A stretch of DNA of 64,000 bases, from positions 69,829,554 through 69,893,553 of the forward strand of contig OX485803.1 in NCBI GenBank assembly GCA_950295325.1, written 5' to 3'. This stretch comes from Polytrichum commune (Eukaryota; Streptophyta; Polytrichopsida; Polytrichales; Polytrichaceae). The notes beneath the pieces were generated by a model. That model saw only the letters and a program-made list of their open reading frames with translations, did not search any database and was not told the origin of the DNA. The translations under genes were made by a program, and so were the position numbers. Every line of letters begins with the position of its first letter. Within the stretch, counting starts at the first letter, position 1. Positions 30,724-61,925 of the stretch are shown piece by piece.

Positions 30724-30735
30724 CTCACCCCCACC
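30724..30735 (-). other. Polypurine tract of copy C
   Basis: GGTGGGGGTGAG on the minus strand lies directly before the 3' LTR, the position of the plus-strand primer in LTR retrotransposons. The same tract precedes the 3' LTR of the deleted copy at 47829. Confidence 0.75.
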
Positions 30736-34720: not shown

Positions 34721-34735
34721 CCAACTTCCTTGTGA

Positions 34736-35812
34736 ATTTTGGGCTCAAGAAGGCATGGCTTGCCTCTTTGTCAACACATGAGACATTTCTTCCATTCATT
34801 GAGCCTCAAGGTACAAAAGATTTGGCCTTGGCTTAAGGCTTCTAGCCTTGCCCACAATGCCATCGTCTTACATTCGGTCCTCGGCAACTTGGCTTGGCTT
34901 GGTCCGCAAAGCCAACTTTAAACATTTTGTCCGCGGGACAAATTGGTTTGGTGCCACAAAACCAATTTCTAATAGTTTGTCCGCAAAACAAACATGTTTT
35001 GCCTTGGTAGCACAAAGCCACCTTCCCACACTCCGTCCGCGGCACGAACATGAATTGCCTTGGTAGGACAAACCCACCTCCCAACATTCCGTCCGCGGCA
35101 CAAGTATGATTTGCTTTGGAAGCATAAATCCACCTTTCAACATTCCGTCCGCGGCACCAACATGTTTTCCCTAAGTAAATTGGACCAAACAATTTGCACT
35201 CATTTCTTTGGGACCTACTTTGGCTAAAGCCACTTGTGGTGATGCGCCGCCAAACTTCTCTTTGGGACCATCGGCTTCAATGCTCTTGCAAACTTGATGG
35301 TCCCCACCATGTCCTCAAGAAGCCTTAGGGACTTAAACAAGGCATCCACCACCCACTTTTAAAACCCCACCTAAAGGATGCATTTCTTAGAAAGCTCGTC
35401 CGTTTTAGGTGTATCCTTCATTTGTGCGTTTGAATAGCGCACATAGGCCTTAAGAGGCCCCGGGTGCCTCATTAGCACCAAATTCATTCCAACATCAATA
35501 CCTTCCAAGCATTTCGAATTGGAATTTCAATCCAACATTAATGCCCTCCAAGGTTTTGGGTGCATTCGGTATTCTAGCCCCCGAATACTTTTCGAGGTTT
35601 GCGGGAGCCTTTTCAAAGCATTCCTCCATTTTCCTCACCGAATCCACCCTCATGCCCACCATTGTCATTAGAATCAATGGTATGGTCAAAATCCACTTGC
35701 ACATGATCCTTGTTCCAATTTGAGCCTCACAACCTTTTGGAAACCCCGGGCTCACCATCATAACCCGCATTTTTGATAGCCATGTCTCCTTCAAAGTGCT
35801 AGCTCAAATATT
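34736..35812 (-). pseudogene. Gag/leader region of copy C with short tandem repeats
   Basis: No intact gag is seen. About 34895-35165 holds four to five imperfect units of about 58 bp containing gtccgcggcac-aa and tt(t/g)gccttgg-agcacaaa. The flanking ORF 35495-35794 shows no retroviral Gag feature. This region therefore appears to be a decayed leader or gag. Confidence 0.5.
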
Positions 35813-35832
35813 GGAACCCTGCTCTGATACCA
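35813..35832 (-). other. Primer-binding site (initiator Met-tRNA type)
   Basis: On the minus strand TGGTATCAGAGCAGGGTTCC follows the 5' LTR after a two-base spacer (CT). TGGTATCAGAGC is the standard plant LTR-retrotransposon PBS complementary to the 3' end of initiator methionine tRNA. Confidence 0.93.
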
Positions 35833-35834
35833 AG

Positions 35835-36807
35835 TGTCGCAACCCTTGCTAGGTCCCTTAACAATCTTGCCAATTTTCGTTTCTAGCAAAGGTTACGAGC
35901 GCTAACCATTCGCATTCCGCCATGCTAATGGTTAGCTCCTCTTACCCCGGACCAATAGTTCATAGGAGGGAACCAACCCTCCTACTTTGCTTTCGGGACT
36001 CACCCCTTAATTGGTAACCCATTTCCCCAATGTGGACTTCCATCCATGGAAGTCCAATCCTATGTTGATCATCGCATTGCCGGAGCAACACTACAACAAC
36101 CCGAAGCATACTAGGCAACTATGGCCTCACAATAGGCCAAAGCCCATGGAGGCCTTGCCGTTCGGCCTCGGGTGGGTGAGGCCACACCACCTCACCCATA
36201 TAAGCCTCTAGGACTCTACACGGAGCCCCTACCCCACCGCCAACCAACCTCTTGTCTCTCTACCAAGAGTTGGGGCCAAGTGGACATTTTCCTTTAGCTG
36301 CTGGGCCTAGAACCCCCCCAGCAGCTTCAGACCATCATAACTTCCTTGTATGATGTCTGATCATAACAACCAACCACTCCATCCTCATCTACGCTTCACG
36401 TAGATGCCGATGGACTCCTCACTTGCCCCATTCGGGCAAGTCTTGAGGAAGTTATGCGTGTTTGAACCTTGGCAGTCCCGGGAATCACTCCCAGGCACTG
36501 CTGTACCAGGGCGCTGTCCCGGGACAGCGCCCCACTCAAATGGCCATAACTCCTAGCTCACACCTCCGATTGAGGTGTTCTTGAGCTTTCTAGAATCACC
36601 ACGCCATGAGCTACGCATAGCTCATGGCCTTACCCTTGTGCCTCCTAGTCTTCGTGGGTGGGAGGCGTTCCCAACGCCCGGGGCCCTCACCCACACTAGG
36701 ATCACTTGGGCCCTCTCACCAACGGCGCCACAAGTCCCGGGTGTCACTCCGGGGTCCCCCTTGTGCCCATGGTGTTTCGGGCACTCCTCATGGAGAGGTG
36801 CGCGACA
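35835..36807 (-). repeat. 5' LTR of chromovirus copy C
   Basis: Same 973-bp sequence as 29751-30723, 6084 bases apart. The ORF translations within the two LTRs coincide. Confidence 0.94.
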
Positions 36808-36834
36808 GGTACATCCACCCACACCAGGTAGGGG

Positions 36835-37375
36835 TTTGGGTCGGTCGACCCAAACCTGATAAGGGTCAGTCGACCCAAACCTGATAAGGGTCAGGAAAAA
36901 ACCCTAACACACTGGGGTAGGGGTTTGGGTCGACCGACCCAAACCTCACAAGGGTGCATCCACCCACACCAGGTAGTGGTTTGGGTCGGTCGACCCAAAC
37001 CTGACAAGGGTCAGAAAAAAAAACCCTACCACACTGGGGTAGGGGTTTGGGTCGACCGACCCAAACCTCACAAGGGTGCATCCACCCACACCAGGTAGTG
37101 GTTTGGGTCGGTCGACCCAAACCTGACAAGGGTCAGAAAAAAAAACCCTACCACACTGGGGTAGGGGTTTGGGTCGACCGACCCAAACCTCACAAGGGTA
37201 CATCCACCAACACCACGTAGGGGTTTGGGTCGGTCGACCCAAACCTGATAAGGGTCAGACAAAAACCCTAACACACTGGGGTTGGGGTTTGGGTCGACCG
37301 ACCCAAACCTGTTAAGGGTCAGACATAAACCCTAACACACTAGTGGACAGGTTTGGGTCGGTCGACCCAAACCTC
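36835..37375. repeat. Dyad array, right part (about nine sites)
   Basis: Continuation of the array at 29531. Sites occur at about 36835, 36921, 36979, 37047, 37105, 37165, 37220, 37288 and 37351, plus a half site at 36869. Each about 126-bp higher-order unit has two dyads with opposite central dinucleotides (AC then GT) and a consistent spacer phrase. Confidence 0.93.
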
Positions 37376-39616: not shown

Positions 39617-39872
39617 CCCTAAAATTTGCTAATTTGAGATTTTCTCTTCTCTCAAATTAATATATGAACCACAACAACATAGTGTAATGTTTGGGTCGTC
39701 CTACCTAAACCATCTTCATATGAGATCTTAATTGCGTTCTTGATATGAACACCCGCTTCAAAGTATTTGCATCTTACAATATTCTCCAATGTACGTGCGA
39801 TTTTATCCATGTTCTTATATTTGTAACTTTCTCAAAATGCCGAAAAAATCCCAAATTAATGAATATACCGAT
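39617..39872. mobile_element. Short MITE-like derivative or ends-only relic of the CMC-like family
   Basis: The left side, from 39617 (CCCTAAAATTTGCTAATTTGAGA), is a degenerate version of the giant element's left end, including the TCTCAAATTAATATATG hairpin arm. About 200 bases on, 39690-39872 matches the giant element's right end in direct orientation (acacccgcttcaaagt-tttgcatcttacaa, tctcaaaatgcc, then tgaatata). Left and right ends about 255 bp apart look like an internal-deletion derivative. The target duplication was not resolved. Confidence 0.5.
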
Positions 39873-41446: not shown

Positions 41447-41558
41447 GTATTGTATTTTATTTTAACCAATATGTGTTTGTAGATTCACGGTGTTGTAGCA
41501 TACACAATGCATAAGCATTGTATATGCTACATGCCAAGTTTAAAAAATATATTAAAAT

Positions 41559-41971
41559 AATACTGTTTGGGGAGACGACCCAAACACAGCCTATTGTTTG
41601 GGTCGACCGACCCAAACACAGCCTCTTGTTTGGGTCGACCAACCCAAACACAGCCTCTTGTTTGGGTCGACCGACCCAAACACAGCCCCTTGTTTGGGTC
41701 GCTCGACCCAAACAAAGTCTTCTAATTATAAACTCATAAAGAAATCCATGATATTTTGCATCAATATAAAATTCACATCAACCCAAAATAATAATCAAGG
41801 AATGTATCAAGGAAAAGTATCAAGGAATCCTGCATGTCACAAACAATATAAAATGCAAATCCACCCAATAATCACAACATTCTTATTATCATTACAAATG
41901 ATGCTGAAATATAAAAATACACAATCCACCTAAACCTATTCATGTCATAGATGTTTGGGTCGAACGACCGA
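41559..41971. repeat. Dyad cluster in intron 1
   Basis: One degenerate and four good dyads at about 30-bp spacing (41559, 41599, 41629, 41660, 41690; phrase acagcc-cttg between them) and a further one at 41950. Central dinucleotides include AC, CT and AA. They lie in the inferred 5'-UTR intron of the ParB-like gene. Confidence 0.9.
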
Positions 41972-43335
41972 AACTAACCTTGCACATTATTTTCTTACAG
42001 ATGGCTCCAAAGAAAAGACCCGGCGAAAGGTGGTTTATGCCTGCGCCGGACATGTTGTGGTAGGAGCACGAAACCCCGCAGGATGACTCCTATTCCCCTA
42101 AGGACGGGCTTGTCCTCGCTTGGTCTATTCAAGTAGTCAAAGCCTCAACATACAAAATGATTTTTGTTGTCAAGGTGGGAACCGTGGAGAAACACACCTG
42201 GGCGACTCTTGCGGGATGGGAGGTCGCATCGGTACAGTCTCTTGGAGACTATACCGACGTCATCCTCGAGAACTCGGCTGTGCAGAACGCGCATATGTTC
42301 ATGCACCAGTTCTCCGAGCCTTTCGACGCACTCTATGCAAGAGAGTCCTGTGTCGAACCGGAAGTTATCAAGCCGGAGACAATATTTATCGATGGGAGTA
42401 CATCGAATACCAAGGTCTCAAGCCGGTTCACAAAACTAAAACATGCAATAACCGTGCTGAACAGGGGCCTGCAAAGCAAAACCAAATCACAGCAACCTGT
42501 GAGGCGGAAAGCTCCCACAGAGGAAGGAGCAGGGTCGTCAAGACCTCAATCGGTGAGGATGCCGCTACCAGTACCGGCTGACTCGCGTAGGACCACTCCC
42601 TCCCAAACACCTACGAATAGTGAGACACCTACACCTTCTGGGAGCCGTCAAACAACTCCATCCAAGAGGGCGAGAGAGTCATCTGTGATGACTGACGAGC
42701 CAGTCTCACCGGAGATGCGCATGCCGAAGCCAGGCGAAGAGGTGGATGCAGGGGAGCTGCAGAAAATTGTGAACAATTTCACGATGAAATGCTCCCACTG
42801 TTTTTTCATGGGCAGGGATTTCAAGTTCGACGTGAACATCAGCCAGTGCCATCTAGCGCCACCGGAGAAGTGTGTCCGGGCAAAGGAGGACGCCTACGTT
42901 GACTGGATAATCGCGCAGATCGTTTGCGAGCAGTTTAAAGATGACAGGCAAACGATTGTAGTGATGCCACAAGGTCTCAAGAAAATGCCTACACCTGAAA
43001 TGTGGCCAACAATTCAGAAGGGCGATTTTTGGCTGATAGACGGCCAACACAGCGTGGAGGCATCCAAGAAAATCCAACTCATGAATGAGTGGGATGATCC
43101 CAACAATCAGAAGGAAAAGCTGAAGGTTTGGAAGGCACTGGTGGTGTGGTCTGACGACGAGACCAAGCTCAGCGACATCTCCCGGTACTTCAATATGGGA
43201 AACAAGAAGAGGGCTTACCAAGCTTCCTGGATAAGGAATATCATGGCCTCGCGGGAGGTGTGGGAGTTCTATGGTAGGCCTCCCAAGGAGAGGGAGAATG
43301 CAAAGGACAAGAATCCCAAGTGGGAGGTGAATATT

Positions 43336-43456
43336 GTTTGGGTCGACCGACCCAAACTCCTGGTGCAGCCTTGTTTATTTAGTTTGGGTCGATCGACCCA
43401 AACAACTGTTGCAGTCTTGTGTTTTTTTTTAGTTTGGGTCGATCGACCCAAACTCT
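43336..43456. repeat. Dyad cluster in intron 2 (three sites)
   Basis: Sites at about 43336, 43382 and 43434. The last two have centre AT and are perfect 20-bp palindromes. All lie within the 43327-43543 intron. Confidence 0.93.
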
Positions 43457-44282
43457 TGTTGTAGATGTTGGTCATGATATGGTTTGGAAATCACATGTAC
43501 ATATCTAACACGCATTCAAATGTTCTGTTTTGTTCACGTGCAGGATTTCAAATACCAAATGATCAACAAATTCTCCTCTATTGATAATTCGAGCCACAAG
43601 CAAAAGAAATACAGCGACCTCAAGGGGGAGATTTACTTGATTACAGCATCGGACTCAGTTTGGAGGAAGTGGAAAAACCGTGTTTGAAAAGCACGAGACG
43701 GGGGATTTGATCGACCCCGACACTAGCGCTTTCTTTAGCCTGGCCTCGCGCTTCAAGCAGATGAAGCCTCTCGTGAGAGAGTTCTTTAGAACTCTTCAAG
43801 GTCTGTCAGAGACAGAGGTGGAGAAGGCGGCATCGCACATCCTGCACGTGGCACCCACGGCGAAGAGGTGTTGGGTGCACCCGAAGATTGTCTTCCAAAA
43901 GCCCAAATCCTTCGTTCCTTCATGCTACACCATGAAGGAATGGACGGAGAACAGGAAAAAGAAGACGACTATCGTGCAGGAGCTGCATAAATTGGTGCCA
44001 GAGAGGAATATTGTCGTGGACGGCGAGGTTCATGAGGCTAACTGGAGAGCATTCAAAGATGAATATAAGTTCACCAGTGCCTCCATGGCGGCTCTAATAA
44101 GGGAAGCGGGGGACGACTTCTTGCGTGCCAAGATGGTGAAGGGTGGGAAGAACCGGGCGCTTCCGGATCACACAGCGCGTGCGTTCTCGAACTTCATCAA
44201 GGAGAAGAAGATTGTCAAGTTTGAAGGGGACGCTTACTTCAACCTTGTCACCTTCGAGCCTTTGAAAATTCAGGGCTGGCCA

Positions 44283-44287
44283 GGTCA
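44283..44287. repeat. TSD of deleted chromovirus copy D (GGTCA)
   Basis: GGTCA at 44283-44287 and 48802-48806. Removing the element and one copy joins WPG to QDARMAI in frame. Confidence 0.93.
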
Positions 44288-44956
44288 TGTCGCGCACCTC
44301 TCCATGAGGAGTGGCCGAAACACCATGGGCACAAGGGGGACCCCGGAGTGACACCCGGGACTTGTGGCGCCATTGGTGAGAGGGCCCAAGTGATCCTAGT
44401 GTGGATGAGGTCCCCGGGCGTTGGGAACGCCTCCCATCCACGAAGACTAGGAGGCACAAGGGTAAGGCCATGAGCTATGCGTAGCTCATGGCGTGGTGAT
44501 TCTAGAATGCTCAAGAACACCTCAATCGGAGGTGTGAGCTAGGAGTTATGGCCATTTGAGTGGGGAGCTGTCCCGGGACAGCGCCCTGGTACAGCAGTGC
44601 CTGGGAGTGATTCCCGGGACTGCCAAGGTTCAAACAGGCATAACTTCCTTACCACTTGCCCGAATGGGGCAAGTGAGGAGTCCATCGGCATCTACGTGAA
44701 GCGTAGATGAAGATGGAGTGGTTGGTTGCTGGAATCAGACATCATACAAGGAAGTTATGATGGTCTGAAGCTGCTGGGGGCTTCTAGGCCCAGCGGCTAA
44801 GGGAAAATGTCCACTTGGCCCCAACTCTTGGTAGAGAGACAAGAGGTTGGTTGACGGTGGGGTAGGGGCCCCGCGTAGAGTCCTAGAGGCTTATATGGGT
44901 GAGGTGGTGTGGCCTCACCCACCCGAGGCCGAACGGCAAGGCCTCCATGGGCATTG

Positions 44957-46995
44957 CATATGGGAGCATGAAGCTCGATGGTTGTCCGACTTGTGAAAGA
45001 AATGGCTATCCCAAGAAAAGGACTAGCCTTGTCACCAAGTCTTTGGGGAGCTTCAGAGCAAGTTTTCTTCGCCGCCCGTGCTCAAGTTCATGGAGTTTGA
45101 CAAACCTTTTGAGGTGCATACGGGGGCGAGTAACTTTGCCAATGATGGATTGTTAATGTAAGATGGATGGCCTTTGCATATGGGGGCTTGACGCTTGATG
45201 GTTGTCAAAGAAGACAACCAACTCATGACAAAGAACTTCTTTGCCGTAGTGCATTGCTTGAAAATGTGGCGACATTATTTGGGGTCGCACAAAGCAAAGG
45301 TCTACATGGACAATGTGTCCTAAAAATATTTTAACATATACAAGCGCAACTAAGCGCCAAGTCATTGCGGTGGCATGATAGTTTGGCGCTTATGAAGGTG
45401 GATTTGGTCCACAAACCGGACCGTGGAAATGTGGTGCCGGATGCGCTAAGTAGACGGGAAGAGTCCCAAGCAATGAGAACCATCCAAACCTTGTGGCTAA
45501 TGTGTGCCGGCGAAGGAAACTTGTGATGCAAGATACGGGAGGGGTAAATTAACTACCCCAAACCACAAAAGCTTTTAGGTGAGCTTTGCAAGAGCAAGGT
45601 GCTCAAAGAGGTTTAGTTGGTGGACGGATTGTTCAAGTGTAAGCAAAGTCGGGTGTATGTGCCTCAAGGCAAGTTGAGGCTATCGGTTTTGGAGGAATAT
45701 GATAGTCCTATTGCCGGCCATAGAGGAGGAAGAAAAAACCGCCATAGAATGGTGTCATGGACATGTACAATTGGCGGTGCAAAAATGAGGATATAGCCCA
45801 CTTTGTGAAGGCTTGGATGAAGTGCCAAGTGAACCGAGCCTCTTACCAAAAGCAAGGCCACTTCTTGCAACCGTTGCCTATCCCGTCGGCGCCATGGCAT
45901 AGTATGTGCATGGACTTGATCACAAGCTTGCCGGAGTCACATGGGTATGATGCCATCTTGTTGATGGTATAGCGGTTTGCCAAGTTGGCACACATGGTGC
46001 CGATTGTGGGAACCGCCACCGCGTTGGAGACCGCATAGCCTTTTCTCAAAGGATGGTTGAGGCACCACGGGTTGCCAAAAGTGATTGTGTGGGATCAAGA
46101 TCCAAAGTTCACAAGTGCATTTTCAATGCATTTCTCTAAGGAGGTCGGAATGAAACTAAGGTTTAGCACGGCCTTGCATTCCCAAATGGATGGGAAAGCG
46201 GAGCATGTGAATGGAGTCTTGAAGCAATACTTGAGGAACTTGGTGGGGGCGGACCAAGGAGATTGGGCGGACTATGTGGGTCGAGCGGAGTGTAATTGCA
46301 ATGTAGCCACGCACTTGGCTACCAAGGGGTGGTCTTTCGTGGTGGCTTATGGAGTGGATGCGCTCCAACCTATTAACCTAGCTCTCGAGGGGGCACATTC
46401 AACACTAGAGTTCAACCAAGATGGTGAGGACTTGGCCAAGAAGCGTGAACAAGTCTTGGAGATGACCAAGTTGTTGGTGGAGAAAGCCCGAAGGTGCTAC
46501 GAAGTGCTAGTCAATGCCGGACGACGCGAAGTGGAGAATGAGGTGGGCCAAAAGGGTTGTTAAAGGTGAACAACTTCATTTAGCCGGAAGGCCTCACTCC
46601 AAAAGTTCATGTCCAAAATTGGAGCTTCGTTTTCCATTGTAGAACAAGTGTTCAAGGACATGTATAAGTTGGAATTACCGCCCGAGATCAAAGTGCATCC
46701 GACATTTCATGTCTCATTACGAAAGTCATTTTAGGACGACACCTTGTGGCCCGATCACAAGCAAGTGATTAGGCCACCTCCCGACCTTGTGGAGGTCATT
46801 TGGAACATGAGGTAGGAGGGCATCCTCAAGTGTAGGAAGTCCAAGTGAAAATGAAAGAAAATGTACAAAGGAGTACTTGGTGAAATGGTGAGGATACCAT
46901 GAGAAAGAAACCGCTTGGGTGGCGGCAAGAGACATGGTGAACACCAATGAATTGGTGAAGCACTTTGAAGAAACTAAGGCTAAGGATTCCAATAA
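44957..46995 (+). pseudogene. Degenerate RNase H-integrase-chromodomain remnant of copy D
   Basis: Plus-strand counterpart of the pol pieces in copy C. The integrase region (about 45750-46560) keeps HFVKAWMKCQVN, the MDLITSLPES acid, VIVWDQDPKFTS (second Asp) and HSQMDGKAEHVNG (Glu), interrupted by stops at about 45970 and 46037. Downstream, near 46865, KEYLVKW-stop-GYHEKETAWV is a chromodomain core. The family is therefore a chromovirus. Confidence 0.8.
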
Positions 46996-47828
46996 AATGA
47001 AGTGTAGGCATTGATGAGGACATCAATCTCCTTTAGTGGGGGAGAGACGCTAGTAGCACACTTAGCTTCGAGGCTAATTGCTCCACAACATGAACTTGTT
47101 CTTTGGCTTGAGGGAATAAAGTCCAAACTTTAGTGGTGCAAAGAGAAAAGTATGAGATGAGGTCCTAGTCCTGTACTTGTGCTTGGTTAATGGAAGAGGG
47201 GGAATAGATATGCCAAACTAGGTTGGGTAAGCCGAGTAATTGGGGGCCATGGCTTGGAGGGGCCTTGGATAAAACCAAGAAACTTCTTAATTGTGGGCTT
47301 GTCCGGGCGGGGACAAGGTGATGGCGCGTGCTCATAAAAGTGCTACCCGCGAGCTAACGAGAGTTGGCGCATGGGAGTCATGAACCCATGTCTCGAAAGA
47401 GCAAAGTGGGAACCGAGTCGGGCGGGACTTGGCATCACCCCCGTGCGATCGAGGCGTGGCTTAACAATGGAAAACCATCTCGGAGTTGCAACCGAGACAA
47501 CTTAGTGGAAGCGTTGAGGTCTCGCCTAGATGTGTCACGTTAGGCTAGTGGAGCCTAAAGGGGGAGGCCCCAAAGGAGGGACAACCCAAGTGAGTCCCAA
47601 AGTAGGTGGGTCTAGTATAGGTTAGGTCCTTGGATGAGAGATCCAAGGTCGCTAACGGACCACCTAGGAACGACACCTTTGGGACTATGCCAAATTTGAA
47701 GATGCATTGTGGGGGTCGCGCCCTAAGGTAAACACAATGCCGCACCATAGAGGATGGCAACTTGAGAATTGGTGTGCCGACTACGAGTATAGTCGATGAG
47801 GGCATCGACTCCGTTTGGTGGGGGTGAG

Positions 47829-48801
47829 TGTCGCGCACCGCTCCATGAGGAGTGGCCGAAACACCATGGGCACAAGGGGGACCCCGGAGTGACACCCGGG
47901 ACTTGTGGCGCCATTGGTGAGAGGGCCCAAGTGATCCTAGTGTGGATGAGGTCCCCGGGCGTTGGGAACGCCTCCCATCCACGAAGACTAGGAGGCACAA
48001 GGGTAAGGCCATGAGCTATGCGTAGCTCATGGCGTGGTGATTCTAGAATGCTCAAGAACACCTCAATCGGAGGTGTGAGCTAGGAGTTATGGCCATTTGA
48101 GTGGGGAGCTGTCCCGGGACAGCGCCCTGGTACAGCAGTGCCTGGGAGTGATTCCCGGGACTGCCAAGGTTCAAACAGGCATAACTTCCTTACCACTTGC
48201 CCGAATGGGGCAAGTGAGGAGTCCATCGGCATCTACGTGAAGCGTAGATGAAGATGGAGTGGTTGGTTGCTGGAATCAGACATCATACAAGGAAGTTATG
48301 ATGGTCTGAAGCTGCTGGGGGCTTCTAGGCCCAGCGGCTAAGGGAAAATGTCCACTTGGCCCCAACTCTTGGTAGAGAGACAAGAGGTTGGTTGACGGTG
48401 GGGTAGGGGCCCCGCGTAGAGTCCTAGAGGCTTATATGGGTGAGGTGGTGTGGCCTCACCCACCCGAGGCCGAACGGCAAGGCCTCCATGGGCATTGGCC
48501 CATTGTGAGGCCATAGTTGCCTAGTATGGTTCGGGTTGTTGTAGTGTTGCTCCGGCAATGCGATGATCAACATGGGATTGGACTTCCATGGATGGAAGTC
48601 CACATCTAGGAATGGGTTACGGATTAAGGGGTGAGTCCCGAAAGCAAAGTAGGAGGGTTGGTTCCCTCCTATGAACTATAAGGTCCGGGGTAGGAGGAGC
48701 TAATCATTGGCATGGCGGAATGCGAATGGTTAGCGCTCGTAACCTTTGCTAGAATTGAAAATTGGCAAGATTGTCAAGGGGGGCTAGCAAGGGTTGCGAC
48801 A
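47829..48801 (+). repeat. 3' LTR of copy D
   Basis: 973 bp, TGTCGCGCACC to GGTTGCGACA, preceded by the GGTGGGGGTGAG polypurine tract. At least one substitution (acctctcc versus accgctcc) distinguishes it from the 5' LTR remnant. Confidence 0.93.
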
Positions 48802-48931
48802 GGTCAGGACGCCAGAATGGCGATAAGGACGAAAGCAAGGGACCGCTTTCCTTTTGGGATGATTGATTTCAGGAATATTCCTGGAAGCTCATTTGAGGGC
48901 ACAATGAGCACCCTCTTTTATGACCCCTTCC

Positions 48932-49904
48932 TGTCGCAACCCTTGCTAGGTCCCTTAATAATCTTGCCAATTTTCAATTCTAGCAAAGGTTACGAGTCGC
49001 TAACCCTTCGCATTCCGCCATGCTAATGGATAGCTCCTCTTACCCCGGACCAATAGTTCATAGGAGGGAACCAACCCTCCTACTTTGCTTTCGGGACTCA
49101 CCCCTTAATCGGTAACCCATTTCCCCAATGTGGACTTCCATTCATGGAAGTCCAATCCTATGTTGATCATCGCATTGCCGGAGCAACACTACAACAACCC
49201 GAACCATACTAGGCAACTATGGCCTCACAATAGGCCAAAGCCCATGGAGGCCTTGCCGTTCGGCCTCGGGTGGGTGAGGCCACACCACCTCACCCATATA
49301 AGCCTCTAGGACTTCACGCGGGGCCCCTACCCCACCGTCAACCAACCTCTTGTCTCTCTACCAAGAGTTGGGGCCAAGTGGACATTTTCCTTTAGCTGCT
49401 GGGCCTAGAACCCCCCAGCAGCTTCAGACCATCATAACTTCCTTGTATGATGTCTGATCATAACCACCAACCACTCCATCCTCATCTACGCTTCACGTAG
49501 ATGCCGATGGACTCCTCACTTGCTCCATTCGAGCAAGTCTTGAGGAAGTTATGCCTGTTTGAACCTTGGCAGTCCCGGGAATCCCTCCCAGGCACTGCTG
49601 TACCAGGGCGCTGTCCCGGGACAGCGCCCCACTCAAATGGCCATAACTCCTAGCTCACACCTCCGATTGAGGTGTTCTTGAGCATTCTAGAATCACCACG
49701 CCATGAGCTACGCATAGCTCATGGCCTTGCCCTTGTGCCTCCTAGTCTTCGTGGGTGGGAGGCGTTCCCAACGCCCGGGGCCCTCACCCACACTAGGATC
49801 ACTTGGGCCCTCTCACCAACGGCGCCACAAGTCCCGGGTGTCACTCCGGGGTCCCCCTTGTGCCCATGGTGTTTCGGGCACTCCTCATGGAGAGGTGCGC
49901 GACA
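48932..49904 (-). mobile_element. Solo LTR E of the chromovirus family
   Basis: 973 bp in minus orientation, flanked by CTTCC (48927-48931 and 49905-49909). Removal joins YDPF to LSKFVDY in frame in the methyltransferase-like exon, only 125 bases from the insertion site of copy D. Confidence 0.93.
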
Positions 49905-50400
49905 CTTCCTATCTAAGTTCGTCGATTATGCAAGCCCTAAGTTCAGGGAGGTAGATATCTGGCTTTGGATAGTCGAGGATAGGAGGGCGGAGCAGGTGTA
50001 CGAGCTTGTCCGGAAACTGCAGCCGGAGTATGCAGTCTCCAAGTCTCACTACATCGCCGCACCGGCGGAGGGGGCTTACACGACGTTGAGGGACAAGAAG
50101 ACCAAGTTCGTCAACGTCTTCTGTTTGTACTTCGTGTACAAAGCGGAGTTGTTGAAGGTGCCGAACCACCCTATATCCCGGATGGACAAACTCTTCCAAG
50201 TTCCAGAAGGGTTGGGTGCCAACAAGTGCCTCTACGACGAGGCTAAATACGCGAACTATCCTTTAGATGAGCTGCGGATGGAATTTTACATGAGAATGAT
50301 GAGGACGCTGACGAGGAGAGGGGACTGCATCTTCAACGTCTTCGGAGGCTCAAAACCTGTCTATGCTGCTATGGTAAGTGACTTTCTATAGCTCGTAAGC

Positions 50401-50497
50401 AGTTTGGGTCAATCGACCCAAACTAGGCTCTTTGCAGGTTTGGGTCGACCGACCCAAACTAGGTTTTTTGCAGGTTTGGGTCGACCGGCCCAAACTA
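50401..50497. repeat. Dyad cluster in intron 3 (three sites)
   Basis: Sites at about 50401, 50439 and 50474 with one or no arm mismatches, inside the 50374-50569 intron. Confidence 0.92.
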
Positions 50498-51688
50498 CAC
50501 ATTTCACTTAGTCTTGTATATGTGACTGCCTCGACAAATTCTAATTTCCCTATAACTTGGATTGTATAGATGTCGGGGCTGAATATATACTCCTACATAG
50601 AGGATGGCGATCTGCCATTTTATAGGGTGCAGAAATCGCTGGCGAAGAAGATGGACATCCTCGATTGGATCCCGGGTAGCTACGTCGACGAGGTTGTTCA
50701 GGGTGGCGAAAACCCTCTTGATAGGGTGAGGCGCATCAACCCGGAGGAAATGGCCATGAGGGCCACGACCCAAGTTCCCGAACCTCTGGTCGGGTTGCAT
50801 CCGGGCAATCCGTCCCGCACAGAAGGTGGCGAGGTTGAGGAGGAGGAGGAGGAAGCAGAGGAACACGAGGAGGCGGAGAAGGAAGGCGACATCGAGGAAG
50901 GGGCAACGGGCTTCACGCAACAATCCGAAGCCCCTCAACGGAAGAAGGCGATGCGGGCGGCAACCCCGCAGAGTAAGCTCGTGCCCGTCCTGACTGTGGA
51001 CGATGCACGGGACATGTACTCCAGGGACGCGACCGCCACGTTCAGGGAGAGGAGGAAGTTGAAGGGGAAGAAGCTGTATGGCGACTACTCCGTGGAGGAG
51101 ACCATTGCCATAAGCAGCGAGGACGACGATGATATTGAGCTCGCCAAACGGCTCAGATCAGATCCCCCCTCCCCGACAGCGTTCGCTGGCATGGTTAGGG
51201 TGAAGCCCGAGGTCCTGACTGTGGAGGAGGCGAACGAGAAGATGAGGAGGGACGAGGAGCAACGCGTCCGTCTGCAGAAGGCTGCCGCTGAAGAGCCCTC
51301 AATGCGGAACGAGGTAGCAGAGCTGAGGGCTCTCCTGTTGGAGCAGGAGCGACAGAGGGCGATGGCCCAACCTCCGTCCCACGCCGAATTGATATCACAA
51401 GTGATACAAGGAATGTGGGCGCAAGGTTTGGTGGTGGCTCCCTCCAGCTCCTTCCCGCACTTGCCCCCCGGCTTCCCTCCGCAGAGCATCCCTCAGCAGC
51501 CTGTGCCGCAATCGTCTTTCAGCTTCCAGCACTTGATTCGGCCCCACCAAGTTCCGTACGCGCCGGTCCAGCAAGTGGATGACCCCAACATCTGGCGCGT
51601 CTCTGGAGCCTCCTCCCCTTTGGGCCCTCCACCACTTCGGCCCCCCATAGTCATGGCGCCCCCTCACCAAGCGGACGACCCCAGGATG

Positions 51689-51778
51689 TTTGGGTCGACC
51701 GACCCAAACCCACCATCCACTGGAGTGTCCGAAGGGCCCTCTCCAGATGCAGGACAGTTTGGGTCGGGCGACCCAAAC
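51689..51778. repeat. Two dyads inside coding exon 4
   Basis: Dyads at about 51689 (centre AC) and 51757 (centre GG) are translated as FGSTDPN and FGSGDPN in the same frame. Here the cis element is part of the coding sequence. Confidence 0.92.
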
Positions 51779-52079
51779 CCCGTTGCAGCGCAGTCCTCCC
51801 TTGACCAACATGGGTGTCAACTAGACACGGCCATGCTAGATGTTGAAGGCCTGCAAGGGCCTGGTGATACCTCTACTCCTAACCAAATCGATGAACGCAT
51901 GCATGATGCACATGCGGAGATTGGTTTAGGACAAGGGCATGATGCCGATCGTTTGCAGGAGAAGGTTCCTGACGTCGTCGGAGAAGGCGGTGGCGAGAGA
52001 GGCGGGGCAGCGGGGACGGTGGAGGCTTCCACATCGTCGAGACATGACCAGGGCGAGGTAATACACTGAGCCCTCCCCA

Positions 52080-52101
52080 ATTTGGGTCGACCGACCCAAA
52101 C
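52080..52101. repeat. Single dyad in intron 4
   Basis: One TTTGGGTCG-AC-CGACCCAAA site just after the GAG|gtaata donor at 52057/52058. With it, every recognised intron upstream of the FCP1 exon carries the dyad. Confidence 0.93.
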
Positions 52102-52547
52102 TTCCTGGGTCATTGTCTTGTTGGCGTGGTCGTGTCCCCCTTGCTAGGAGGAAATGCACACCCCCTGCCCCCCCCCGTGCTCTACACTTGCTCCCCCTCC
52201 CCCCAACGTGCCCCCCCGCGATCCCCTTCGTCTCACCTGCACTCGACTACGCTCGACCTTGGCGGCGCGCAACCAATTTTGTAGATGTAGAATTAGGGTA
52301 GTGTGAATGCCCTCGTTCACCGCGGTCCCCCCCAATCAAATTGTACATAGAGATTTGTAAAAATAAAATTATTATTTTTGGCGCCCATATGTTTGCATCC
52401 GTGTCCTAATGTATGTTGTTCCCCTTGTATGTTTTTGTTGCCACCAATGGTCCAATTCTTCTTGTGTTTGCACAAAATTTCCGTTCTGCTTGAGATGGAC
52501 ATAGCATAACATAGTCCTCGTCCGCCTTCTCTCGCTCGTCGCCGCAG

Positions 52548-53360
52548 GGTTCGGAGCATAGCGTCGCAGCTCCCCACCGATCCTCTCCGAGGAGTGTGGA
52601 GGACAGCGCGGTGGTCCCCCCGATTTTGCCCTCGCCACCTTCGCCTCCCAAGACCCGGTTCCTGGTGCTAGACCTCAACGGGGTCCTTGTCCAGTGCGTG
52701 CATTGTCCGAGGGTCCCTACGGTGCCTTTCTGCAAGCCCGAGGACGCCAACTACGATGGACCCCCCGCGTACATCAAAAGCAAGCTAGTGTACCTCCGCC
52801 CGTCCCTTCGGCGCTTCCTACAGGTCGCCCTATCCAAATGGTGGGTGATCATTTGGAGCTCCATGAAGTCCGAGAATACCCAGGCCGTCGTGGAGTTCAT
52901 CTTCAAGGGACTCCAACCCCCGTGCTTGGTCCTAGGACAGGATTCTTGTAAAACATTATACACCCCCGAGGGTAGGGTTGTGAAGAAGCCCAACAACCCC
53001 GCCGTAAACCAATTTCTTAAGGTCTTGAAGCCAGTCGTATGGGACCAGCGTCCGACCATGGTCGGCTGTCCCTACGACGTTCGCCCCACCCGTGACAACA
53101 CGTTGATGGTGGACGACAGCGCTTCCAAAAACATTTTGAACCCGACCTCGAACTTCATAGTTTGCCCCACGTGGACGGTCGAGAAGGTCCGAGACCGCTT
53201 TTTGTTAGACCTACTTAAGTACATTCAAACGCTCGTGGGGAGCAGACTACCCGTGCCCCGGTTCCTTAGTTGTAATCCGATAGGCGAAAGATACATGGAT
53301 CCGAAGGACTATATGTACAGAGAGTTGTACGCTCACGCGAAATATAATAAACTCATTTGA
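52548..53360 (+). CDS. FCP1/NLI-type HAD phosphatase-like domain (exon in phase with the ParB/MTase-like gene)
   Basis: Opens after a good acceptor (gtcgccgcag) and stays open to the TGA ending at 53360. Motifs: FLVLDLNGVLV (HAD motif I with D-x-N instead of D-x-D), YLRPSLRRFL, VIIWSSMK (motif II Ser) and LMVDDSASKNI (motif III Asp pair). The order and spacing fit the FCP1 homology domain, which dephosphorylates phosphoserine in proteins such as the RNA polymerase II tail. The lost second Asp is also seen in plant FCP1-like proteins and may lower activity. The preceding exon ends in phase 0 at 52057 and this one starts in phase 0, so a direct fusion is possible. An alternative acceptor at 52147 would give a short exon ending in a stop. 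A separate gene starting at GTG/ATG further in cannot be excluded. Confidence 0.7.
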   Translation, partial: GSEHSVAAPHRSSPRSVEDSAVVPPILPSPPSPPKTRFLVLDLNGVLVQCVHCPRVPTVPFCKPEDANYDGPPAYIKSKLVYLRPSLRRFLQVALSKWWVIIWSSMKSENTQAVVEFIFKGLQPPCLVLGQDSCKTLYTPEGRVVKKPNNPAVNQFLKVLKPVVWDQRPTMVGCPYDVRPTRDNTLMVDDSASKNILNPTSNFIVCPTWTVEKVRDRFLLDLLKYIQTLVGSRLPVPRFLSCNPIGERYMDPKDYMYRELYAHAKYNKLI

Positions 53361-53487
53361 GATACTACATGGTGTGCCATTGTGTGTGATATATTATGCC
53401 TCAATTGTATATCGATTTTCACATGCTCCTCCCTCCCCCCCTCCCCCCCTCCCCTTGGGTTTTGTTTTGTTTCCTTTTTTGCGCCAG

Positions 53488-54324
53488 CGTTTGGAGCCCT
53501 CGATTGAGATCGTCAGCGAATCAAACTTGGGGAGCTTCTTCTACGAGACCGTCTACGATGCCGCGTCCACCATCGACTACTCCAAGGAGCCTATCAACGC
53601 CGGCGTCGTCGATAGCCCCCCACCCAAGCAAATCTTCCGGCCATCTCTGTCCCCGTCGCCGCTCAAGGGCATAAATCGCAAATGCATCCGGACGTCCCCC
53701 TCTCGGCCCGGCGGCAGTATTACACCTCAACGGCGGCTGCGGATGGACGCTCGGCCCACGAAGAGTGGCACCCTTCCTATCCCTTTGCGGGACGCCTTGC
53801 CCCTCCTCGCCAACTCCGACGGGAACGCCCCCGGTGACAAGGTGAACCCCCCCCCCCCCCCCAAAACATGGTTAACCGCGCATTACAATCATCCCGCACT
53901 TAAAAATTGAACGTGTGACACGTTTGGGTCTTCCTCCCTAAACTAACACATGTGTTCTTGCATTGACGCGTTGCAGGTTGCTCCCACCCGTAAACCTATG
54001 CGGGCTAGTGCGTCCGTCGAGTTGGAGCGTTTCTACTCCATGACCAGAAATGCAAGACAGTCCACTTCATCGTATTCGAATTCTTCGTCGTATAATTCGG
54101 GCGGCCGACGGAATCCAAAATGTGTTTTTGATGGCGGTCACCCCAAGAATGGCTATAGTCGCGGGGCGGAGATTTTCAGGAATGTTGAAGCAATGCGAGC
54201 AAAAGAAGCCGCAGCAAAAGAAAAAGAGGCAAAAGAAAAAGAGGCAAAAGAAAAAGAGGCAAAAGTAAAAAAAGCAAAAGAAAATGAAGCAAAAGAAAAA
54301 GAGGTAGTCTCCGAGGCTAGATAG
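53488..54324 (+). CDS. Two-exon Lys/Glu-rich hypothetical protein (5' end unresolved)
   Basis: Exon a (53488-53841) begins after a gcgccag acceptor and ends GACAAG|gtgaac. Intron 53842-53976 contains a C14-like run and a degenerate dyad (gtttgggtcttcctccctaaac near 53921). Exon b (53977-54324) ends SEAR-stop. All junctions are phase 0. The protein is Ser/Pro-rich with basic patches, then a charged helix of KEKEA repeats (about 54200-54300). No family is recognised. It lies directly after the FCP1 exon and may be an alternative C-terminus of the same transcription unit: FCP1 stop skipped by splicing, or a separate gene whose start I cannot see. Confidence 0.45.
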
Positions 54325-54483: not shown

Positions 54484-54695
54484 GTCTAAGGTTTGGATTG
54501 CCCTACCTAAACCATCACAAATATGAGTTTGGAATATTTTGTATGTTATATTATATTGGTTCACATATTTCCCCTTCAATATGATCTATGGTTTGGATTG
54601 CCCTACCTAAACCATATTCATACAAGTTTTTGTGCGATAATATGAATGTTTTAAGATTTCCCCTTCAACTTGGCCTAAGGTTTGGATTGCCCGCC
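54484..54695. repeat. Right subterminal degenerate dyads (three copies)
   Basis: Three imperfect copies of gtttggattgccctacctaaac at about 54488, 54593 and 54674, each preceded by tccccttc-a-ttgg-cta-g. They resemble the 20-bp dyad with changed arms (centre shifted). The relic at 39690 has the same type (gtttgggtcgtcctacctaaac). They probably form the subterminal binding region of the right end. Confidence 0.7.
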
Positions 54696-54835
54696 CTAAA
54701 CAATCCCAAATATGAGTTATTAATGGGGTTCTTGTTCTAAACACCCGCTTCAAAGTGTTTGCATCTTACAACTTTCTCCAATACGTGTTCCATTTATCCT
54801 TGTTCTTATTTCTGTGAATGTCTCAAAATGCCCAA

Positions 54836-54863
54836 AAAGTCTCAATTTAACGAATATAGTGTT
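54836..54863 (-). repeat. Right 28-bp terminal inverted repeat of the giant CMC-like element
   Basis: Ends CGAATATAGTGTT; exact reverse complement of 25742-25769, followed by TGAC at 54864-54867. Confidence 0.92.
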
Positions 54864-54867
54864 TGAC

Positions 54868-57591: not shown

Positions 57592-57619
57592 AACATTATA
57601 TTCGTTAATTTGAGACTTT
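57592..57619 (+). repeat. CMC-like family terminus, copy 2
   Basis: AACATTATATTCG then TTAATTTGAGACTTT: three differences from the giant element's 28-bp terminus, followed by the same TCTCAAATTAATATATGG hairpin arm. The partner terminus is not found before the window end. Confidence 0.85.
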
Positions 57620-58136
57620 CTCTTGTCTCAAATTAATATATGGACCACAACAACGTGAATTCGCCCGTAATTATATTGTCAACAATCTCAAATATATTAT
57701 CAGTCTAATATCCCCAAATCAGTGGTTGGCGATATAAGCACATTGGGTAGAACACTTGAAACCAACTTCACCACCAAAACCACAAGGGTAGAGCACTTGA
57801 AACGAACCTCACGAAAGAAATCATATAGAATGTTATTTATTATTAGCATACGAAGTAAAATATAGATACTACAACCTTGGAAGCGTCGTGCAAAAAATGC
57901 ATATTCATTCAACCCAACAATTTAGTCCCAAACAAAAAATAAAATAAAGTTCACATTTGTTATGAAATATTGTATATAGATATTCATCCAACCCCAATGG
58001 AGTTGGAGCGTTCCTAAGTTCAACCCACACTCTATCTTTATTTTGAGGAGCACACATATGACTAATATGTGCCTACTATAGTTACATATGGAACTATAAT
58101 TATTATGATAACACAATCCTACCAACTTCTCATTCA

Positions 58137-61100
58137 ACGTGACATGCTTCTTGTTCGATCCAAGCAAAGTTGTCTTTAGCAAAAGTTATGTACTTTTGAG
58201 GGATGGACACTGATCCACTATGATTTTTCCGTGGTTTTCATGCTATGAATATGAAATCTGTATCTATCCAAGATGGACCGTGCTCAGAATCCACCTTCCA
58301 CCGAAAGTTTGGGTTTGTATCCCAGCCCATGTAATGCCGAACCACATCTTCATTCCGTGCCGTCGGTCGGTAGTACTCCACCTCAATTTGCCGAAAATGA
58401 GGGCTGGAAGTTGCAAAATTTGATTTGGACAAAGCTCTTGCCATCCACACTGGCTTTGCATATGTCTCATTTCCAAAACGCAAAATAAGCATATAGCCTT
58501 CATGACAATCCACTGCAGTGCGGAAAGATGGTGGGGGAAGATTACCAGCAGGCCCGACGTAATGGTCATCCACATCAAACTCCTCTCAACCCTCTCCATT
58601 TCCCAAAATGCTAGCCTCCAAAGCATGTACATTGACACGTGTTTGTGGCCAAAACCCATGCCTCAAAGTAAGGGGTGTATCTTGGTGAAGGTTTGCCAAG
58701 GCGCCACGAACACGTGTCTAATACTGTATCCAACTCCCGTAACGAAGCCAACACGATCCACTAACATCCGCTACCCTCAAACTCTCCCAATATTGTATGA
58801 AGCCTGATATGCCTTTTACAATATCCTCCAAATTCTTCATGGGTATTGATTTGCAAGGCTTAGGCTTCCTGTTTGGCAACATCGTCCTTCCCTCCCCATC
58901 AACATGCCATACAAGAAGACCCTCCGGTGGGCTCCAGTCTTGTGTCGTGTACAACAACTTGTATTGCATGGCGGGGACACTATCGTCACGCATGTAGAAC
59001 CGGAATTGTTGTGCCTTCATATGTCCGATCAATCAGTGAGCTCCACTTCAAATATACGGTTCTATAAATGCCTTGAAGTCGGGCACCTCCTCGATCATAT
59101 GGAGGATGACGGGAGCGTTCTCCAAATCCATGTACGACTTCATCAACAATGGAATTGTTGGGAAATCCTCCTCTGACAACTTCATGCTCCACCGCCCAAA
59201 ATATGCATCAATATCATTATGCGTGTGACCTACCAACAAAAATGACACAAAGGCTTCCTTGAAAATGCCTTTCGCAACCAACAACGACCAATATGCATAA
59301 ACATATATCATTTTATTGTCCTTGGCACAATGCTCCAATTGGACACGCAAAATTGGGGGCAAATTCGTGGCAATCACATCTTCACTTGGTGGCTCCGGCA
59401 ACGAGTGCAGACATACATCTTTTCCATCCAAGACCACTTCATATAGAGGTGTTGACCCCGTGTTATCAAATAACAATCTTGAAGAATAGGACGGCGGTTT
59501 CTCCAAATCACGTAAAAGCTTTGCAAATGATCCTATTGTGTGGTTTGAATCCGCCGGATAGAAATTGAGAGCATAATGAACAAACTTGACATCACCGTGT
59601 CTATGTACAATCATTCCTGCAATGCCAACCTAACGGTTTAATATTCAACTATAAAAATATTTACATGGTGTACATCCATGGCCCCAAGTACAATCCTACA
59701 AGCACAAAGTTGTGTTTAGGTAATGCGATGCAATTGTTTTCAAATTCACCTGTAACCGATACATGTAGCTTAAAAAACCCGTCTGTGGCTTTGATTCGAT
59801 TTGCAAAACAATGGTGAGGTTCTTTTGGCATGGTCCATTTTGTCATGGATGATTGTAAGGACCTTCGAGGGTCTGGTGATGGACAAAGCTCTATTTGTGT
59901 AGTAATCATTACGGTGTGCCTCTTATATGTTCACATGCTTGAAATAGTTCAATTGATGTGTTGCATAAGACTTTGTCCCCATCGTGTGTGCATCTCGAAG
60001 GCGCTTCAACTTCTCGCATTTGGAACAACGGGCAAATTTGTTGCCTCGTCTTTTTGTGATGTATTCGCTAAAGTTTGATTTTTTTTATTGCACTCAATTT
60101 TGACAACGAAATTGAATCCAATCCGACCTTCTCACCAACTGCGTTTACGTCCAACAATTCCACAACCTTTTCACCGGTTGCGAGTGTGCGTGTTTTGTGC
60201 GGCATTGCATCGGCAAGGGGGACAATGATGGTTGCCAGAGTGGCAGTTGCTTGCCTCGTTGCTTCCCTGGGTTTCTTTAAGCCCATGTTCCCATGGTGAC
60301 GGGACCGGCGACTCTCCTTGGCATACACGGTTTGTCTATAAAATTCCGCTTTCGATACACCGTGAATGATGTACCATGCCGTACAACACACGTCTATGCT
60401 TTCAAGGGTGATGACCTTGCGACCCGTTCCGTTCACATGTATCGCCCTATGAACATTAAGTTTTTTGGTGGATCTTAGACGGAAATCTCCAAGTCACATT
60501 TCTTCGCGGATGGCCTTCATTTTATCCCTTGGGAATAATTGGCAACAACGATATACACAACAATCCTTTGTGGCAACTTCTCTTATAGACTCTTCACAGA
60601 GCAACCTTTGACGTTTACACTCATTTGCAGACGGAGTAGAACGTGCCAATGTATCATACTTCCGTAGGCCTTTGCATGGCCAAATGTTTGTTTGGAACTC
60701 CTTTTGGATTTGGATGTGTCGTCGCTCATGGTCATGCAAGCTAACACCCTTAATCGTCACTTTCCTCAATGGCCACCTATGAGTTGTATTTACTTCGGAA
60801 TGAACGAGCGATTCCAATATAACAACTCCAACGTCCTCGGTGCCAAACGGGTTTTCATCAATGCAATCTTGTGGATGGGTGTTACAACAAATACCCTCCG
60901 CCACAGCAACTCAACTGTCATTAACAAGTACCACCTCTAAATTCACCCATGAAGCTCGTAAAAGCCCCACACATTCCACAATGGGGCAAAAAGGTACAGA
61001 TGGTGAAGGACCCCCCAATTGACCTTCATCTGCACTGTCATCAAAAGTAGCCTCCTCGATAATGTCTAGTTCATCCCTAGATGCAGATAGGGTGGTGCCC

Positions 61101-61165
61101 ATATCTTCAAAGAAGGAATCACCTCTTTCACCAACTCCCTCCATTGCGCCTACACACATGCACAT
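58137..61165 (-). pseudogene. DUF7869-type putative transposition protein, copy 2
   Basis: Same layout as copy 1 and same distance from its terminus. Exon 1 starts MCMCVGAMEGVG at 61165 and here reads ECVGLLRASWVNLEVVLVNDS before an in-frame stop near 60911. Exon 1 ends KATDGFFKLHVSVT, and the intron uses gttacag|gtga ... ctgcag. Exon 2 keeps FLLVGHTHNDIDAYFG and QLEHCAKDNK (Asn of DNC replaced by His). Frameshifts split it at about 59045, 58720 and 58575, so it is inactive. Comparing copies shows which changes are decay. Confidence 0.75.
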
Positions 61166-61329
61166 GAAACCTCAACAAAGATGGACACAATGTAAGGGTC
61201 CAAAAGAATAAAATATTAGAAATGCAAGACATCATGATCATTGGGGACACTGAGGCCCAAGACATGTCCAACACAACTACAATGTGAACTCCCAATCATG
61301 TGCAACAGTCCAAAAAATGTTCCACAACA

Positions 61330-61565
61330 TATTTTTGGAAGGGATTTGGGTCAACCGACCTAAACCCTGTGGCAGGATGGATTGAGGGTCATCCAAAGCT
61401 CGCACATGGGGTGGAACGGGGTTTGGATCGACCGACTCAAACCTTGTACCATGATGGGTTCAAGTTCGTACTCAGTCCGTACAAACCTTCTCACATGATG
61501 GGTTCAGGGCCATTCACAATTCGTTCACGCTGTGGGAAATAGTTTGGGTCGACCGATCCAAACCT
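61330..61565. repeat. Degenerate dyads upstream of copy 2
   Basis: Three mutated dyads at about 61335 (atttgggtcaaccgacctaaac), 61420 (gtttggatcgaccgactcaaac) and 61541 (gtttgggtcgaccgatccaaac). Same position relative to the DUF7869-type gene as the array at 29531. Confidence 0.85.
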
Positions 61566-61925
61566 TCTCAGGGTCGATCTAAATCCGCCCACACTGGGGG
61601 GGAAACTCAAGTATGTGAGCGGAGAGCGGAAAATTTAGATTATATTGGGAAATTTTCGGAGAAGCAGTGCCTATTTCCGTGGAATTAGAGATAGTTTGAA
61701 TTCAATATGTTGGAAAGGCACCCCATTCCCGTGGACTTAATAACCAAAAATTGTTCGAAATACACAAAATATTTTATTAGTCAACAAAATGTAGCCAACC
61801 TGAAGACTTACAAAAATGGGTAGTCAGTTCAAGTAGCTATATACTATAGTTTAAGGCCATCTACATCCTATCTGCCGGGCATGTCCAATATGGGTAAAAT
61901 GATCCAAAGAACATGCCATAGATAT
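61566..61925. other. Spacer, no gene seen
   Basis: AT-rich, without recognised coding sequence, dyads or a terminus matching the family's right end. Confidence 0.4.

Follow-up and report, generated by a model that had tools for sequence, protein, structure and literature searches.

The 64,000-nucleotide stretch of Polytrichum commune DNA analysed here (assembly GCA_950295325.1, contig OX485803.1; hereafter the window) contains a DNA transposon copy that has been damaged; the element is about 16 kb long, looks autonomous and has two genes in divergent orientation. The minus strand carries a DUF7869 gene close to the left end, and the plus strand an accessory gene with ParB-like, methyltransferase-like, coiled and FCP1-type parts (Table 1). 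A dyad of 22 bases, GTTTGGGTCG-NN-CGACCCAAAC (10+2+10 bp), recurs between the two genes and in the introns of the accessory gene. An initial annotation had placed a transposon-borne gene combining ParB-like, permuted methyltransferase-like and FCP1 phosphatase domains at 42001–54324; a gene joining such parts, with a coiled part in addition, is indeed present and is conserved in many copies, and the interval belongs to the element, but the limits of the element (25742 and 54863) lie outside it.

In the window copy the accessory gene is a pseudogene: besides the inserts, it has an in-frame TAG at 42061–42063 and changes frame between 43641 and 43690. Both the dead state of this copy and the existence of open copies elsewhere had escaped the initial annotation, the individual observations of which were otherwise borne out: the named motifs are found where it had placed them, with DGQHSVEA in a frame that is open from 42064; the two long terminal repeat (LTR)-type inserts that it had removed are real, the reading frame is preserved around both and the three stretches that they separate share one frame in other copies; and the FCP1 exon is in phase with the coil exon (GT donor at 52057, AG acceptor before 52548, phase 0).

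Intact paralogues were sought in the same genome and were found. The 154-residue methyltransferase-like exon, searched against the genome of the window itself (64 contigs, 407.8 Mb), gave at least 150 scored matches out of 918 candidates, with identities of 88–100% (the window's own match included), and 139 of the 150 had no stop in the 154-residue match. Eight copies were fetched for exon comparison, making nine sequences together with the window. The exons are collinear in all eight, in the order ParB, exon 2 stretches, coil and FCP1, and where the window copy is interrupted, seven of them have a single open exon of 444 amino acids; the eighth, L043, stands outside that comparison, a deletion across intron 1 having fused its ParB exon and exon 2 region into one open frame. 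Because the exon order can be read off other copies, the fused gene did not arise from excising the inserts from the window sequence. Intron 1 is present in seven of the eight copies, with CAA instead of CAG as the acceptor in L046. In one copy, L047 (C1:71193000-71202900), the exons are 98–100% identical to those of the window, but ahead of the ParB exon the sequence differs: it lacks the usual MAPKKRPGE start, and no dyads were found upstream within the fetched stretch.

All parts of the accessory gene, the FCP1 part included, are under purifying selection. The ratio of nonsynonymous to synonymous divergence (dN/dS), calculated piece by piece for seven pairs of copies that are not independent of one another, was 0.04–0.22 in 33 of 38 finite comparisons, with dS saturated in seven more. 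By piece, the values were 0.06–0.11 for the ParB exon (finite for three of the seven pairs, with dS saturated in the other four), 0.07–0.38 and 0.02–0.12 for the first and second stretches of exon 2 (the latter finite for four of seven pairs), 0.04–0.16 for the motif-I stretch, 0.15–0.22 for the coil and 0.14–0.22 for the FCP1 part. For a later exon (53488–53838), one of the open stretches past the FCP1 stop that may serve this gene as alternative terminal exons, three pairs gave 0.19–0.41.

The sequences argue that the ParB/methyltransferase-like, coiled and FCP1 parts form one protein. An arrangement as separate ParB/methyltransferase and FCP1 genes was considered and judged unlikely, because there is no ATG between the exon start and DLNGVL in any of the nine sequences and because the phase-0 splice pair of intron 3 is kept in all six copies in which both of its sites were read (those of L043 and L046 were not). 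In the window there is no ATG in the open frame ahead of the FCP1 exon either.

Table 1. Features of the transposon copy and its accessory gene, in window coordinates (TIR, terminal inverted repeat; TSD, target-site duplication; MITE, miniature inverted-repeat transposable element).
Feature	Position	Strand	Details
DNA transposon, window copy	25742–54863		29,122 bp; 16,563 bp without the three LTR insertions
Left TIR, 28 bp	25742–25769	+	28/28 match to right end; TSD TGAC at 25738–25741
DUF7869 (PF25273) transposase-like gene, in pieces	26277–29252	-	Pfam match in 26277–27788 only, E 4.9e-42
Dyad array, part 1	29531–29737		4 sites, 0–1 arm mismatches
LTR-retrotransposon-type insertion	29751–36807		TSD GGTAC
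Dyad array, part 2 (intergenic)	36834–37372		10 sites: 9 with perfect arms, one with 4 mismatches
Short MITE-like nested element derived from the same transposon family	39617–39872		Left-end and right-end sequence; right end with 7 mismatches to the TIR
Probable 5' intron	41448–42000	+	AG acceptor before ATG 42001, possible GT near 41447; dyads at 41596–41974
Exon 1: N-terminal region and ParB-like domain	42001–43326	+	LIDGQHSVEA near 43040
Intron 1	43327–43543	+	GT-AG; three dyads
Exon 2, first stretch	43544–44287	+	Frame change between 43641 and 43690
LTR-type insertion	44288–48801		TSD GGTCA (5 bp)
Exon 2, second stretch	48807–48931	+	Contains FYDPF
Solo LTR	48932–49904		TSD CTTCC (5 bp)
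Exon 2, third stretch	49910–50373	+	Methyltransferase motif-I-like GDCIFNVFGGSKPVYAAM; GT donor at the end, 50373
Intron 2	50374–50569	+	Three dyads
Exon 3	50570–52057	+	End of motif-I-like region, acidic/coiled and proline-rich tail; dyads in frame at 51688 and 51757
Intron 3	52058–52547	+	Phase-0 GT-AG; one dyad at 52080
Exon 4: FCP1/NIF domain	52548–53360	+	DLNGVL ... VDDS; stop 53358–53360
Open stretches past the FCP1 stop	53488–54324	+	53488–53838 in 6/8 copies; without early ATG
Degenerate dyads before right TIR, three	54491–54701		4 mismatches each
Right TIR, 28 bp	54836–54863	-	TSD TGAC at 54864–54867

As a sequence assignment, the identity of the FCP1 domain is certain: it matches PF03031 with an E-value of 2.3e-13 and 50.6 bits against a cut-off of 21.8, and it also matches TIGR02251 and TIGR02245 below their cut-offs. 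The domain claim of the initial annotation stands firmly for FCP1 and with moderate strength for the ParB-like and methyltransferase-like parts, for which there are profile alignments in the right order and no Pfam match. No ParB or methyltransferase family was found above its cut-off in Pfam, NCBIfam, PHROGs or PADLOC, and in the Pfam scan the methyltransferase-like part did not reach PF01555, the beta-class N6/N4 methyltransferase family. Searches of the viral and the prokaryote (bacteria and archaea) collections recovered no relatives of the ParB piece or of the methyltransferase piece, and sequence searches of the PDB gave single chance matches (E 0.31 and E 0.91) or none.

A tblastn search of phages with the motif-I region gave eight matches with E-values of 6–9, seven of which are not methyltransferases. 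The eighth is gene 1 of Curtobacterium phage Elener, an N6_N4 methylase (PF01555) that aligned at motif I and has an N-terminal part resembling proteins annotated as ParB; the same search with the ParB piece gave no match. A profile of 13 phage methylases found via Elener, eight of them of full ParB–methyltransferase fusion length, was used as a template for hhalign, with a query profile built from seven of the eight copies. The best alignment falls on motif I (score 29.4, P 0.0098) and the second on the ParB motif (17.7); none of 200 column shuffles reached 27.9, the largest score being 26.5. Because the template family had been found through a weak match, the comparison was repeated without Elener, and it gave the same two places with scores of 26.8 and 16.0. 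The ParB-motif alignment alone is not significant; what counts is its position. Taken as a whole, these alignments support ParB and methyltransferase ancestry, if weakly. The genome contains a second methyltransferase gene family, represented by two near-identical open reading frames (ORFs) of 577 amino acids on large contigs (L054, C4:44111740; L055, C1:9662150) with an N6_N4 methyltransferase match over the Pfam cut-off (PF01555, E 1.1e-7 in L055); inspection by eye revealed no clear ParB motif upstream in L056, and comparison of these PF01555 ORFs with the accessory family showed no relation (score 18.0).

The catalytic motifs of beta-class methyltransferases are FxGxG and DPPY, and that of FCP1/NIF phosphatases is DxDx(T/V). 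In the accessory family the signature residues of all three domains are altered, and identically so in the nine sequences: methyltransferase motif I reads FGGSK compared with FGGSG in the phage protein; no DPPY is evident, with an invariant FYDPF in its possible place; the FCP1 motif reads DLNGVL, in which the first Asp is retained and the second replaced by Asn; and the GxxR of the ParB P motif reads GQHS (within DGQHS), with Ser in place of Arg. In the tested ParB-fold proteins described in the accessible part of one report, loss of this Arg abolished nucleotide binding (PMC12704722). Given the altered signatures, an active methyltransferase is unlikely, and a protein conserved in this altered form may serve in binding or as a scaffold, or its chemistry may have changed.

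The 28-bp TIR of the window copy recurs at 28 of 28 positions on eight ends in five of the eight other copies fetched; the fetched parts of L046, L047 and L050 showed none. Exact 4-bp TSDs (TGAC, AACA, AAAT and TTAG) flank all four copies with both ends read, which are the window and three others, all three of one clade and 15,839, 16,183 and 16,480 bp in length. Two further left ends of the same family, with two mismatches each, lie to the right of the main element at 57592 and 63081, and the region 57592–61600, in which the left end is followed by a second DUF7869 stretch, is 87–89% identical to the main element. Assignment to the CACTA elements, to which the CACTA within the TIR points, was dropped because the ends read AACACTA and the TSD is 4 bp, not 3 bp. 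CACTA elements have a 3-bp TSD and Sola transposons one of 4 bp. According to the accessible parts of the respective papers, the TSD is 3 bp in EnSpm (PMC12730594) and 4 bp in Sola2 (PMC3627910). The 4-bp TSDs are in keeping with Sola, Sola1 included, and the transposase-like family identified in the element is DUF7869. Rfam gave no match at the gathering threshold.

DUF7869, which had at least 150 scored matches in the genome out of 1490 candidates, probably represents the transposase of the element. Among the DUF7869 matches listed (150 of 1490), at least 17 of the 150 methyltransferase-like matches have one within 15 kb, at least 14 of them in divergent orientation, whereas random placement gave a mean of 1.8 of 150 and a largest value of 6 in 200 trials; the observed figure is a lower bound because the listed matches are 150 of 1490. 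In the most divergent clade, at 88% identity, a DUF7869 partner is present in 11 of 11 copies, always divergent and 6.8–11.1 kb away, so that the accessory gene is opposite in strand to DUF7869 in the window and in the whole of this clade. No relatives of the DUF7869 piece were found in the viral and prokaryote collections.

Perfect-arm dyads number 9,231 in the genome and a reversed control gave none; their placement relative to elements was determined in the window and the eight copies, the genome-wide figure being a count with the first 100 places listed. The window has 39 dyads with up to five arm mismatches, 20 of which are perfect, and Markov shuffles of the window gave one match in four of 20 and none in the other 16; the sites at 25933 and 33259, with five mismatches each, are probably due to chance, and three of the 39 lie in the element to the right of the main one. 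Every one of the 21 introns examined in the eight copies holds at least one dyad (up to two arm mismatches), and the density is 56 in 6,207 bp of intron versus 12 in 35,933 bp of exon, the latter consisting of two per coil exon in each of the six copies with that exon delimited. The number per intron varies between copies while the arms remain constant, and 11 of the 16 possible dinucleotides are used in the spacer. With its arms fixed, its spacer free and its surroundings changing, the dyad looks like a site at which a dimeric protein binds. No dyads, at up to four mismatches, were present in eight DUF7869 loci (3.4–3.6 kb each) belonging to other families, and the form with an AC spacer had no exact match in viral contigs.

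The statement in the initial annotation that no element of this kind had been described did not hold: ParB–methyltransferase accessory genes are already known in algal and brown-algal transposons. According to the accessible text of PMC12477816, Ectocarpus Sola1-1_Ec32 is a 21.5-kb Sola1 element that encodes, opposite its transposase, a 1,104-amino-acid protein with ParB-like and N4C/N6A methyltransferase parts; its authors suggest that the protein binds and modifies the element's own sequence, and they cite relatives in green and red algae. Like the element described there, that of P. commune is a large DNA transposon with an accessory gene opposite the probable transposase and with parts that weakly resemble ParB and N4/N6-type methyltransferases. 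It differs, by that description, in the joined FCP1/NIF domain and long coil, in the alteration of the three signatures and in the dyads that it carries; the same text has no mention of dyads, FCP1 or a target site (PMC12477816). The phage ParB–N6_N4 methyltransferase fusions, of which Elener gene 1 is an example, likewise have a ParB motif followed by a permuted methyltransferase with motif I last, but in the Elener protein DPPY and FGGSG are intact and both coil and FCP1 domain are absent, and the similarity is limited to short stretches. To the FCP1/SCP (NIF) phosphatases the likeness lies in a PF03031 match over the cut-off and in DLNGVL and VDDS, which are conserved in the accessory family, and the difference in the Asn at the second Asp of DxDx and the fusion to a transposon protein. 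Fungal DNA transposons of several superfamilies carry TET/JBP genes, which act on DNA marks, as far as the accessible part of that report goes (PMC12730594), and offer another parallel, although the gene product is there a dioxygenase and not a ParB/methyltransferase/FCP1 protein.

A functional precedent is VANC, which binds short tandem-repeat motifs in the introns and intergenic parts of VANDAL21, where repeats are gained and lost and methylation is lost, according to the accessible part of PMC5735166. The element from P. commune resembles that system in having a second element-encoded protein and repeated motifs of changing number in introns and intergenic parts of its own copies, and the layout of the dyads appears strikingly like that of the VANC targets. 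It departs from it in its transposase and domains and in its long symmetric dyad with fixed arms; no DUF1985 (VANC-type) domain was among the Pfam matches of the window at E-values up to 1, and the VANC protein itself was not compared directly. The FCP1 fusion, the altered residues and the dyad are apparently new: a literature search by FCP1 (titles and abstract openings, with few subscription papers) returned none that joins FCP1 to such a protein, the latter two features not having been the target of a search, and the accessible part of a 2026 review of gene capture by plant transposons names neither ParB nor FCP1 (PMC13317346).

We propose, with a probability of about one half, that the accessory gene encodes a self-recognition protein, assembled from a degenerate ParB–methyltransferase and an FCP1-like domain, the role of which is probably anti-silencing or regulatory, and that the element and the dyad binding are as set out here. 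The protein would bind GTTTGGGTCG-NN-CGACCCAAAC as a dimer and so recognize the element's own copies; it would nucleate or spread at the dyads and keep the element expressible, as VANC does for VANDAL, and its FCP1-like part may have the transcription machinery as its substrate or docking partner. Dyad binding by the accessory protein, and an effect through anti-silencing or regulation and not through methylation, are what we infer from the features described above. A more specific version, parS-like self-recognition in which the ParB-derived, FCP1-fused protein is loaded at some nine thousand dyads and, at its own copies only, targets RNA polymerase II or chromatin, is tentative and on present evidence doubtful. 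If the proposal is correct, a VANC-type anti-silencing system has been assembled independently, from prokaryotic parts. With many conserved copies, a eukaryotic domain joined on and a precise candidate binding site present thousands of times, the family makes it directly testable whether ParB–methyltransferase accessory proteins recognize their own transposons.

Several observations weigh against this proposal. All four exons are open and the usual start is present in three of the eight fetched copies, the remaining five being marred by a stop, a deletion, an interruption, a change of frame or the loss of the start, and the joining of the exons is predicted from genomic DNA. DUF7869 lies within 15 kb of at least 17 of the 150 methyltransferase-like matches, among those listed. 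The library matches to ParB (PHROG 1033, ParB-like, E 0.03–0.16) and to a methyltransferase (PADLOC MTase_II, E 0.023, the sole match in that scan, in which the ParB pieces had none at all) are below the cut-offs, and on the same pieces unrelated families scored similarly (acetolactate synthase small subunit, 0.034; MPN396, 0.072; HTH_17, 0.095), so that these E-values alone prove nothing. The family profile has an effective number of sequences (Neff) of 1.1 and is thus nearly a single sequence; the top shuffle (26.5) also falls on motif I of the template, and the Elener-free score of 26.8 has no shuffles of its own. AlphaFold2, run on the ParB piece alone with no alignment, gave a mean predicted local distance difference test (pLDDT) score of 35.5 and no usable fold, and the ParB motif is without the GxxR arginine, for which reason a CTP-clamp mechanism is not assured. 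The dyad keeps its arms fixed among copies whose dS exceeds 1, unlike the VANC targets, which vary from family to family, and the dyads could belong to the transposase.

This last point leads to a different reading, in which the dyads are bound by the DUF7869 transposase or by a host factor and the accessory protein has nothing to do with them. Transposase-binding subterminal repeats sit near the ends in other elements, and here degenerate dyads adjoin the right end; moreover, the DUF7869 gene occurs together with dyads in the same elements, as does the accessory gene. We nevertheless regard this reading as rather unlikely, as the dyads are mostly internal, many of them inside accessory-gene introns and not at the ends, and other DUF7869 loci have dyads in none of eight cases, although those loci come from other families and were covered over 3.4–3.6 kb each, not as full elements. 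It is also quite improbable that the resemblance to ParB and methyltransferases is due to chance, in a transposon-specific DNA-binding protein of unrelated origin that has an FCP1-like domain. The absence of an above-cut-off family from the libraries, the phage matches at E-values of 6–9 with seven of eight to other proteins and the failure of the ParB piece to find any phage match would fit such an origin, but the two best profile alignments fall at equivalent places and in order, the first with a score unreached by 200 shuffles, and the same combination opposite a transposase has been published for another transposon, as far as the accessible text shows (PMC12477816).

Activity as an N4C/N6A DNA methyltransferase by which the protein marks its own element, which the accessible text of the Ectocarpus paper proposes for that element and other algal relatives (PMC12477816), would be in keeping with the permuted order with motif I last, the profile match to phage ParB–methyltransferases and the purifying selection on the motif-I exon (dN/dS 0.04–0.16). 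We consider it very unlikely in view of FGGSK for FGGSG, FYDPF in nine of nine sequences with no evident DPPY-type motif and a PF01555 threshold that is not reached. A ParB-like motif together with thousands of parS-like dyads could also mean that the protein pairs or clusters copies in the nucleus, as ParB does on parS, with a role in transposition or co-inheritance and not in expression; with the P-motif Arg replaced by Ser (DGQHS) in all nine sequences, this is extremely improbable. Among these readings we favour the self-recognition protein with an anti-silencing or regulatory role.

Other observations concern the remainder of the window and the assembly. Three small-contig loci (L051–L053, contigs C10 and C12) have a bacterial-looking methyltransferase and phage-like ORFs by eye, and these contigs are possibly contamination or symbiont DNA in the assembly. 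Solo LTRs of the same family as that in the accessory gene, 94.9–100% alike, are found in the window at 12445–13417 (TSD TCCAC) and 18753–19726 (TSD ACGTG). An ORF at 2022–3389 encodes an interferon-inducible-GTPase-like domain (PF05049, E 6.6e-24) and coiled repeats, and a hAT-type transposase ORF of 1084 codons at 6484–9735, with matches to PF04937 and PF05699, is open throughout.

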